Below, in pieces: positions 15,107 to 18,881 of a stretch of DNA of 26,635 nt. Location of the stretch: positions 1 through 26,635 of the IMG/VR virus record IMGVR_UViG_3300038361_000138. The stretch is one strand, 5' to 3'. Position numbers and translations under genes: made by a program. The notes beneath the pieces were generated by a model. It was given only the letters and a program-made list of their open reading frames with translations, ran no database searches and was not told the origin of the DNA. This DNA comes from a virus. Within the stretch, counting starts at the first letter, position 1; every line of letters starts with the position of its first letter.

Positions 15107-15448
15107 TTATCTCTTTTTATGATGCCGCTTCATATGCTCTTGCCAACTCAACACCTCAAGGTTATCAATGCTATTGTTTAGCTTGTTATGGTCTATATGG
15201 TGTACGCTGTGTCCTTTAGGTATCACAATATCGTTATTAAGCACAACCAATCTATGAGTATAACACTTAAAACCTTTATGCTCTATGTACTCATAACCTC
15301 TTTCACAAATATGACGACTGCCATTTAATAGCATATCAGACACTAAATGATTTGGTGGATACTTGCTAGCAATATGTTGTCCCTTTCGTTTCTTCTTCTC
15401 ATAATAGAGAACAACCGATTTATCTGCATTTATCCTTATTTTTAACAT
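15107..15448 (-). CDS. HNH endonuclease, homing type (113 aa)
   Basis: The C-terminal half has the HNH_3-type pattern: THRLVVLNN, then GHSVHHIDHNKLNN (His83-His84 and Asn at 91-92), then IDNLEVLSWQEHMKRHH. The metal-binding His and Asn residues are intact, so it is probably active. The N-terminus has a YEKKKRKGQHIASKY stretch that may contact DNA. Free-standing HNH genes next to a terminase are either mobile homing endonucleases or, in some phages, nucleases that help packaging. It lies between small and large terminase genes, separated from both by about 200 bp of noncoding DNA, more like an insertion than an operon member. No SD close to the ATG is as strong as in its neighbours; AAAAGG lies 12-15 nt upstream. 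Confidence 0.8.
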   Translation of the reverse strand: MLKIRINADKSVVLYYEKKKRKGQHIASKYPPNHLVSDMLLNGSRHICERGYEYIEHKGFKCYTHRLVVLNNDIVIPKGHSVHHIDHNKLNNSIDNLEVLSWQEHMKRHHKKR

Positions 15449-17820: not shown

Positions 17821-18264
17821 ATGGGACTAGATATGTATTTAGACAAAAAACTATATCTTTCAAAGTATAACAAAAAACAAAACAAACAGCGGAAAGATAT
17901 TAAAAAAGTAATCGGAGTTTCTGGTATTAAGGAAATTCAAGCCGATGCAATATATTGGAGAAAATCAAACCAAATTCATAAATGGTTTGTTGACAATATA
18001 CAAGAAGGAAACGATGATTGCGGAACTTACGAGGTTGATATAAGCATCTTAGAAAAACTATTAGCCACCATCAACAAAGTTCTAAAAAGTAAAGGGTTGG
18101 CAACAGAGTTATTGCCCCCAACCGAAGGTTTCTTTTTTGGGGATAACGAAATAAATGACGAGTACTGGACAGATTTAGAGTATACCAAAAACGCACTAAA
18201 GAGAGAGCTTAAATTCGCTAAAGAAAACCCCGGCTGGTATTTTGTTTATAGTTCAAGTTGGTAA
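17821..18264 (+). CDS. Conserved MGLDMYL-family phage protein (147 aa)
   Basis: The protein starts MGLDMYLDKKLYLSK and then carries YWRKSNQIHKWFVDNIQEG, DDCGTYEVD, ELLPPTEGFFFG, a YW..LE.TK helix, and the ending WYFVYSSSW. This is the whole signature of a widespread family of phage and bacterial hypothetical proteins that begin MGLDMYL and end Y..SSW. The biochemical role is unknown to me. The strongly conserved His, Trp and Asp/Cys residues suggest an enzyme or ligand-binding fold. AGAGGTACAA lies upstream of the start. It is followed by a tRNA-like element. Confidence 0.75.
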   Translation: MGLDMYLDKKLYLSKYNKKQNKQRKDIKKVIGVSGIKEIQADAIYWRKSNQIHKWFVDNIQEGNDDCGTYEVDISILEKLLATINKVLKSKGLATELLPPTEGFFFGDNEINDEYWTDLEYTKNALKRELKFAKENPGWYFVYSSSW

Positions 18265-18274
18265 ATTAAATTTA

Positions 18275-18397
18275 GGAGAGTGGCGGAATAGATAGACGCT
18301 AAATTGCCAAAATTGAGAAGTAATCGCTAAAACCAAGACGGCTAATAATGATAGCAATAATAAATCTTCATGTAGGGTGCAAATCCCTACCTCTCCA
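18275..18397 (+). ncRNA. tRNA-like RNA element (tRNA-Leu-type ends, no clear anticodon arm)
   Basis: This 123-nt stretch lies between two genes. Its ends, GGAGAG (18275-18280) and CTCTCC (18391-18396) followed by A, pair as a 6-bp acceptor stem. The next 19 nt, TGGCGGAATAGATAGACGC, match the D-arm of tRNA-Leu/Ser types except that a loop GG is GA. Near the 3' end GTAGGG-TGCAAAT-CCCTAC forms a 6-bp T-arm whose loop keeps T54, C56, A58 and T60 but has G at 55. Acceptor plus T-stem make 12 bp, as in a normal tRNA, though split 6+6 instead of 7+5. The middle 72 nt holds no convincing 5-bp stem with a 7-nt loop and U33. Candidates are GCTA/TAGC and AATT/AATT pairs. No CCA is encoded. It is about 38 nt longer than a normal tRNA-Leu. 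It could be a tRNA mimic acting as a leader for the HNH gene, a decayed tRNA, or an intron-containing tRNA. Confidence 0.6.
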
Positions 18398-18413
18398 CAA
18401 GCAAGGAAAAATA

Positions 18414-18881
18414 ATGAAACCAAGAGTAAGTTTGAAAGATTATTTAGTAAAAAGTGGTTGTGAACTTTCAGAAACCACAAACCAATGGGAAATAGCAAGG
18501 TTTATAGCAAATGGAATAATATGTGTGATATATAGAAACCAAAAAGGACAATATGCCTTTTCAGATAAAATTGCATCAAGGATATTTCACTCTTGGAGTA
18601 ATGGAAAACCCTTTAAGTTGCCAAACATTAAAAGACAAGTGGTAGGCAAAATTCTTAAAGCACAACTCATACGCAGAGATGGGCTTACCTGTTTTTATAG
18701 TGGCGTTGAAATGAAAGAAGAGGAAGCCACAATAGAGCATCTTATCCCGGTTTGTAGAGGTGGAAAAAACATATTAGAAAATCTGGTGCTATGCACGGAA
18801 AAAGAAAATCAGAAAATGGGAAATAAAAGTTTGATACAGAAGATAAAATACAGAGACCAAAATAGAAAAAAGGAGAACTAA
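18414..18881 (+). CDS. HNH endonuclease, Cas9/McrA-like HNH motif (155 aa)
   Basis: The C-terminal half has RRDGLTCFYSG (residues 87-97), ATIEHLIPVCRGGKNILENLVL (105-126, with Glu108-His109 and Asn123) and CTEKENQKMGNKS (127-139). This is the ββα-metal HNH pattern 'hxHxxPxxxGGxnxxxNLvxxxxxxNxxKg'. The N-terminal 80 residues are basic and may bind DNA. I chose the ATG at 18414, with AAGGA 7 nt upstream. The longer frame from 18348 would translate the T-arm of the tRNA-like element. The gene starts 17 nt after that element, which suggests that they move or are expressed together. It is probably a homing endonuclease. Confidence 0.8.
   Translation: MKPRVSLKDYLVKSGCELSETTNQWEIARFIANGIICVIYRNQKGQYAFSDKIASRIFHSWSNGKPFKLPNIKRQVVGKILKAQLIRRDGLTCFYSGVEMKEEEATIEHLIPVCRGGKNILENLVLCTEKENQKMGNKSLIQKIKYRDQNRKKEN

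Follow-up and report, generated by a model that had tools for sequence, protein, structure and literature searches.

A phage tRNA-like RNA without an anticodon arm, found ahead of an HNH endonuclease gene, is one copy of a widespread and unnamed family

The locus and the fold of the element

The window analysed here is a whole stretch of 26,635 nucleotides of viral DNA (IMG/VR record IMGVR_UViG_3300038361_000138), and the tRNA-like RNA under study occupies positions 18275-18396, on the plus strand, in the gap between two genes of the same orientation. The upstream gene (17821-18264, plus strand; 147 aa, phrog_7971) is of unknown function, and its stop codon lies 10 bases 5′ of the RNA. On the other side, an HNH endonuclease gene (18414-18881, plus strand; 155 aa, HNH_4/HNH_5) starts at ATG 18414, 17 bases past the element, and its ribosome binding site, AAGGA at 18403-18407, does follow the RNA within a few bases, as the initial annotation of this locus had stated. 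Read back from this start, the HNH frame contains no stop through the T-arm and reaches a further ATG at 18348, within the RNA (18348-18881); of the two, ATG 18414, which has the ribosome binding site, is the more probable start. A second HNH gene, of the HNH_3 type, is located on the minus strand at 15107-15448, near the terminase gene.

The putative processed ends of the RNA are joined by an acceptor-like helix in which GGAGAG (18275-18280) pairs with CTCTCC (18391-18396); A18397 takes the discriminator position and no CCA follows. This 6-bp helix was already recognised in the initial annotation, and it covaries across the family described below, whose outermost acceptor pair alone is missing in the window (A18274 versus A18397). 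A TG linker (18281-18282) leads into a D-arm of the tRNA-Leu type, the two spanning 18281-18299, with the stem formed by GCG (18283-18285) and CGC (18297-18299) around the loop GAATAGATAGA. Then come a hypervariable middle of 72 nt (18300-18371), in the place of the anticodon and variable arms, and a T-arm (18372-18390) made of GTAGGG (18372-18377), the loop TGCAAAT, with G at position 55, and CCCTAC (18385-18390); in the family, the loop is conserved and the outer T-stem pairs covary. The D-arm word, the T-loop deviating at position 55 and the 12 bp of acceptor and T-stem split 6+6 had all been described correctly, with the refinement that the family usually has 7+6. Within the middle, a variable-arm-like helix of only 4 bp, GAAG (18317-18320) with CTTC (18366-18369), ends two bases 5′ of the T-stem and is not significant alone (p=0.17), while a possible pseudoknot strand, ATTGC (18303-18307), would pair weakly with GCAAT (18354-18358), a pseudoknot that is not significant family-wide. 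The minimum-energy fold of the element includes all three end helices (z = -2.0).

With default settings, ARAGORN called neither a tRNA nor a tmRNA in the window, and Rfam 15 gave no match at the gathering score in the whole window, the tRNA (RF00005) and tmRNA models included; at E up to 10, the region 18200-18450 returned chance matches only. The earlier statement that no named RNA family fits the element therefore agrees with Rfam. An intron-bearing tRNA was considered and rejected, since ARAGORN forced a cloverleaf only at a lowered threshold and with an invented 41-nt intron. A leave-one-out covariance model built from 49 homologues, with the window excluded, places positions 18274-18398 at 70.8 bits (E=2e-18, the E-values of these models being rough), and the second-best place in the window scores 15.2 bits.

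Covariation and distribution of the family

The window RNA is one copy of a widespread phage RNA family that has no name. Viral contigs and bacterial genomes together supplied at least 119 distinct members, and the carriers include phages of Lactobacillus, Listeria, Enterococcus, Brochothrix and others. The IMG/VR pattern fixed part of the D-arm and the GGG/CCC of the T-stem, with 55-85 bases between them, and left T-loop positions 55, 57 and 59 free. Among the matches listed, 66 of the 87 distinct ones carry the T-loop TGC(A/G)AAT, and G at position 55 is a rule of the family; matches with a TTC loop are mostly off the family register and mostly represent ordinary tRNA-Leu or chance. Because the search patterns behind these counts constrain part of the T-arm or D-arm, the family is probably more varied than they show. 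The usual register is a 7-bp acceptor stacked on a 6-bp T-stem, which makes 13 bp. GG is typical of the family D-loop, with GAATAGGTAGA found in 93 of 119 members. It had been proposed that the elbow contacts of the window RNA are altered on both sides: G55 stands as a family trait, and the D-loop GA in place of GG is a private change of the window element, seen in 1 of 119 members.

The acceptor helix provides the most direct test of conservation, given that, one G excepted, the search made no use of the sequence 5′ of the D-arm or 3′ of the T-stem. In 45 non-redundant members, acceptor pairs 2-6 are formed in 42-45 and pair 7 in 39, versus 18-24 in shuffles in which the 3′ bases were dealt anew among members. 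The innermost acceptor pair is G-C in all 45, and most acceptor pairs occur in all four Watson-Crick types. When 16 pairs of the acceptor, D- and T-stems were scored in 58 members, 98.8% of the cells were paired versus 75.7% after shuffling, and the covariation score reached 0.613, as compared with 0.140 in shuffles and at most 0.10 with the partners slid; the 45-member acceptor test is the cleaner one, because this larger set was preselected for acceptor pairing. The initial annotation had proposed a search for compensatory end-stem changes at homologous loci, and the outcome is strongly positive in both sets. In genomes found by the model and not by the pattern, the T-stems have changed altogether (GTAAGG/CCTTAC, GTGAGG/CCTCAC and GTGTGG/CCACAC) and the loop is still TGCAAAT. 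By comparison of sequences, then, the acceptor, D- and T-stems are shown to be kept by compensatory change, and the D- and T-loops to be conserved. Most clear members score 57-88 bits with the family models and ordinary tRNA-Leu 26-55, with a blurred boundary at about 50-57 bits; lower scores occur in a few members whose loop is TTC or whose parts are degenerate.

The middle follows another regime. It ranges from 30 to 129 nt (median 62), is dissimilar between members, and differs even among Lactobacillus plantarum phages that have the acceptor (GTGCTTG), the D-arm and the T-arm in common. Hairpins resembling an anticodon arm with U33 occur at chance, in 7 of 119 members versus 6.0 in shuffles, which together with the default ARAGORN result bears out the earlier view that no usable anticodon arm is present; CCA directly after acceptor and discriminator is found in 2 of 119 members in the 7-bp register and in 9 of 119 in the 6-bp register. 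A helix ending 1-2 bases 5′ of the T-stem, at the site of the tRNA-Leu variable arm, is enriched, beating dinucleotide shuffles at p<=0.05 in 42 of 87 among the matches listed. A general pseudoknot of the H type, in which the lead would pair with the variable-arm loop, was first suggested by eye and by joint scoring, and was rejected once the helix was held fixed (6 of 39 at p<=0.05; Wilcoxon p=0.1); it is convincing in one group only (L030, L176, L190 and L171).

Several variations on this architecture were observed. In eight loci (L020, L129, L133, L154, L185, L186, L108 and L158), the middle includes one more T-arm-like word, of the ordinary kind (GGGTTCGATTCCC or one like it), as if another tRNA piece were nested there. 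Tandem or close copies, two or three per phage, are present at L020 11362-11737, L144 705-1302, L179 12737-13513, L190 11-2127 and L398 2171-2529 (LP65), some of them being weak model matches. Lactobacillus phage P1 has a 59-nt miniature (L122 2572-2630) with acceptor, T-arm and a small hairpin for a D-arm, and the copy of Listeria phage P70 (L309 2501-2634; 16.9 bits), degenerate and with poor T-arm pairing, might be a pseudogene.

At model E<=1e-10, matches were obtained in 16 of 151 Lactobacillaceae genomes, 6 of 25 Listeria genomes and 6 of 299 Bacillota genomes, two of the last six being ordinary tRNA-Leu. The T-arm pattern extends among GTDB genomes to Paenibacillus, Virgibacillus, Sporosarcina, Thermincola, Acidobacteria, Planctomycetota and others, not all of these matches being complete elements, and a short T-arm query, weak alone, matched 45 phage records, some of which were confirmed by the model. 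The Desulfobacterota model matches that were read, the centre genome apart, turned out to be ordinary tRNA-Leu. One Lactobacillus-type member found no match in the E. coli genomes searched with it, and the element is absent from Listeria A118. In the named records that were looked up, the element is unannotated or, as in B054, lies under a small hypothetical ORF; no paper on such an RNA was found in the open-access literature, and a description in a subscription paper is possible.

Genomic setting and candidate roles

Members of the family are often located in intergenic gaps between a late activator and the packaging genes. Among flanking ORFs of 120 aa or longer that lie up to 2.5 kb from an element, and that around viral members were called by a simple ORF rule, 364 share its strand and 66 are on the opposite one. 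The initial annotation had placed the RNA directly ahead of an HNH gene, which is not the defining neighbour in the family: the commonest upstream gene is a RinA/ArpU-type late activator (phrog_248 in 22 of 81 members, phrog_36 in 19 of 81), and HNH shares with the terminase small subunit the place of commonest named downstream neighbour. The 1.5 kb downstream of the element contain an HNH ORF in 10 of 57 members and the upstream side does so in 3 of 57, versus 6% of random windows, so the association is real, modest and not defining. The order is RinA, element, HNH and terminase in Sha1, and ArpU, element and terminase in phiFL2A, whose match has just 24.4 bits; LP-101, PSA and Brochothrix BtpYZU01 are further named examples of this late-operon setting. 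In Iacchus, LP65 and ATCC 8014-B2, the elements lie among tRNA genes, and 25 of 119 members have tRNAs within 1 kb (24 of them on the same strand), versus 8% of random positions.

In the Listeria phages PSA and LP-101, the element is flanked by rli62 (RF01486) on its 5′ side and mcrA RNA (RF03010) on its 3′ side. There, rli62, the tRNA-like RNA, mcrA RNA and a terminator-like hairpin stand in a row (L307 2416-2861; L310 2919-3344) that spans about 500 nt of non-coding DNA before the next gene and is probably one composite leader or non-coding transcript. In Iacchus and ATCC 8014-B2, the tRNA-like RNA adjoins ROOL (L123 1891-2446; L125 2262-2834).

The window itself does not follow the late-operon arrangement. 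Its HNH protein has no relatives in IMG/VR, named phages have no DNA similarity to the window region, and relatives of its terminase and of its upstream gene carry no copy of the RNA. This departure from the common arrangement, and the lack of the RNA beside relatives of the upstream gene, suggest that gain and loss of the element are not tied to the genes around it.

These comparisons show, at the level of sequence, that a tRNA-like body without an anticodon is conserved as RNA, on the transcribed strand and beside phage genes. We give an even chance to the explanation that the window RNA, as a member of this family, is an excised, non-decoding, tRNA-shaped RNA with an action of its own. The RNA would fold into a tRNA-like elbow with an acceptor/T stack of 12-13 bp, and host RNase P and RNase Z would cut it out of a longer phage transcript; in the window, its excision from the message between two genes would give the HNH message a new 5′ terminus. 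Processing by RNase P and RNase Z is plausible for the window RNA, the tRNA-like fold by itself not being proof of cleavage by either enzyme, and some tRNA enzymes might work poorly on an RNA with a 13-bp stack and G55. A 13-bp stack resembles that of bacterial tRNA-Sec, and it could disfavour EF-Tu. The RNA would be transcribed, and after release it would be stable and incapable of decoding. Its likeliest action would be that of a tRNA-shaped scaffold or decoy whose partner is a tRNA-recognising factor of the host or the phage, and the rapidly changing middle would presumably be the portion under diversifying pressure; we infer this step from the shape of the RNA and the variability of its middle alone. 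That the family as a whole consists of trans-acting phage RNAs, with a body similar to tRNA-Leu that lacks an anticodon and with a quickly diversifying insert, used against or through the host machinery that handles tRNA, is a tentative proposal to which we give slightly less than an even chance.

It could also be envisaged that the element is cis-acting punctuation, a processing or stability signal in a polycistronic phage message from which an RNA without a role of its own is released. We regard this as rather unlikely, with real points in its favour. The elements follow the transcribed strand, the Listeria phage copies lie inside the non-coding DNA between rli62 and mcrA RNA, and the window element is wedged between two genes that are so close that purely cis-acting processing would look alike there. 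What such a signal leaves unexplained is the conservation of the T-loop TGCAAAT and of the D-loop sequence, the tandem copies, and a middle of variable length with its own helix.

Another explanation would turn the RNA into an anti-defence decoy, a lure for host nucleases or modifying toxins whose targets are the tRNA acceptor or elbow, with an arms race varying the middle. The acceptor, D- and T-domains are kept and the middle is free to vary, even behind the same acceptor GTGCTTG, and the accessory distribution in Lactobacillaceae and Listeria genomes is consistent with this role; nevertheless, a decoy does not need a variable insert, and we consider this version distinctly improbable. A DNA-level element (a homing target, attachment site or packaging site by the HNH or terminase genes) draws on the frequency of packaging genes among the neighbours and on the downstream enrichment of HNH, and appears very unlikely: the acceptor keeps its pairing and not its sequence, the loops keep a tRNA-like sequence, orientation tracks transcription, and many members have neither HNH nor terminase as nearest neighbour, and the homing role suggested earlier for the element gained no positive evidence. 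Finally, an ordinary or intron-bearing tRNA-Leu, or a decayed remnant of one, has the same D-arm word and scores of 26-55 bits with the family models, and is in the main refuted and barely credible, given the chance level of anticodon-arm hairpins, the rarity of CCA, the missing Rfam tRNA match, the different T-stem register and compensatory pairs that would not persist in a remnant. The initial reading of the window RNA, as a mimic of tRNA that does not decode, is upheld.

Relation to known tRNA-like and phage RNAs

A strongly covarying RNA family is absent from Rfam 15 and not annotated in the records that were looked up, in spite of carriers long present in databases, such as Listeria PSA, Lactobacillus LP65 and Sha1. 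With it, phage tRNA islands and late-operon leaders gain a second class of tRNA-shaped product, and the purpose of non-decoding phage tRNA-like RNAs, T4 RNAs C and D among them, becomes testable in cultured phages with small genomes.

The T4 RNAs C and D (species 1 and 2), for which we know of no established function, are like the family in being stable, phage-encoded, about 120-140 nt long and part of a tRNA cluster, and RNA C shares with it a terminal variable-arm-like hairpin followed by a T-arm. Unlike the family, they have the T-loop TTCGAAT and no matching D-arm; RNA C was considered as a homologue and rejected, its 12.8-13.4 bits (E 0.2-0.3) with the family models not being significant. 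Bacterial tRNA-Leu (type II, RF00005) shares the D-arm word TGGCGGAATNGGTAGACGC, the place of the variable arm and a discriminator that is mostly A, whereas the family has no anticodon arm, a 6-bp T-stem with UGCAAAU, a middle of 30-129 nt and only rarely a CCA. The tRNA standard of a 7-bp acceptor, a 5-bp T-stem and the T-loop UUCRANY differs both from the 6+6 of the window and from the 7+6 of the family. The tRNA-like domain of tmRNA likewise combines an acceptor with a T-arm and has the anticodon arm replaced; the family differs in retaining a paired tRNA-Leu D-arm, and neither ARAGORN nor Rfam calls a tmRNA in the window.

As for the neighbouring non-coding RNAs, rli62 and mcrA RNA are separate Rfam families that leave the tRNA-like part uncovered, and their position directly 5′ and 3′ of the element in PSA and LP-101 indicates that the three probably belong to the same leader transcript. 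ROOL and GOLLD are phage non-coding RNAs frequently found near tRNA islands (PMC12286853); they are far larger than the family members, adopt other folds and have no tRNA-like ends. The tRNA-like structures of plant viruses, such as that of TYMV, mimic the tRNA elbow and differ in topology elsewhere (PMC4810234), and in contrast to the phage family, structures of this type lie at the 3′ ends of RNA genomes and have a different connectivity.
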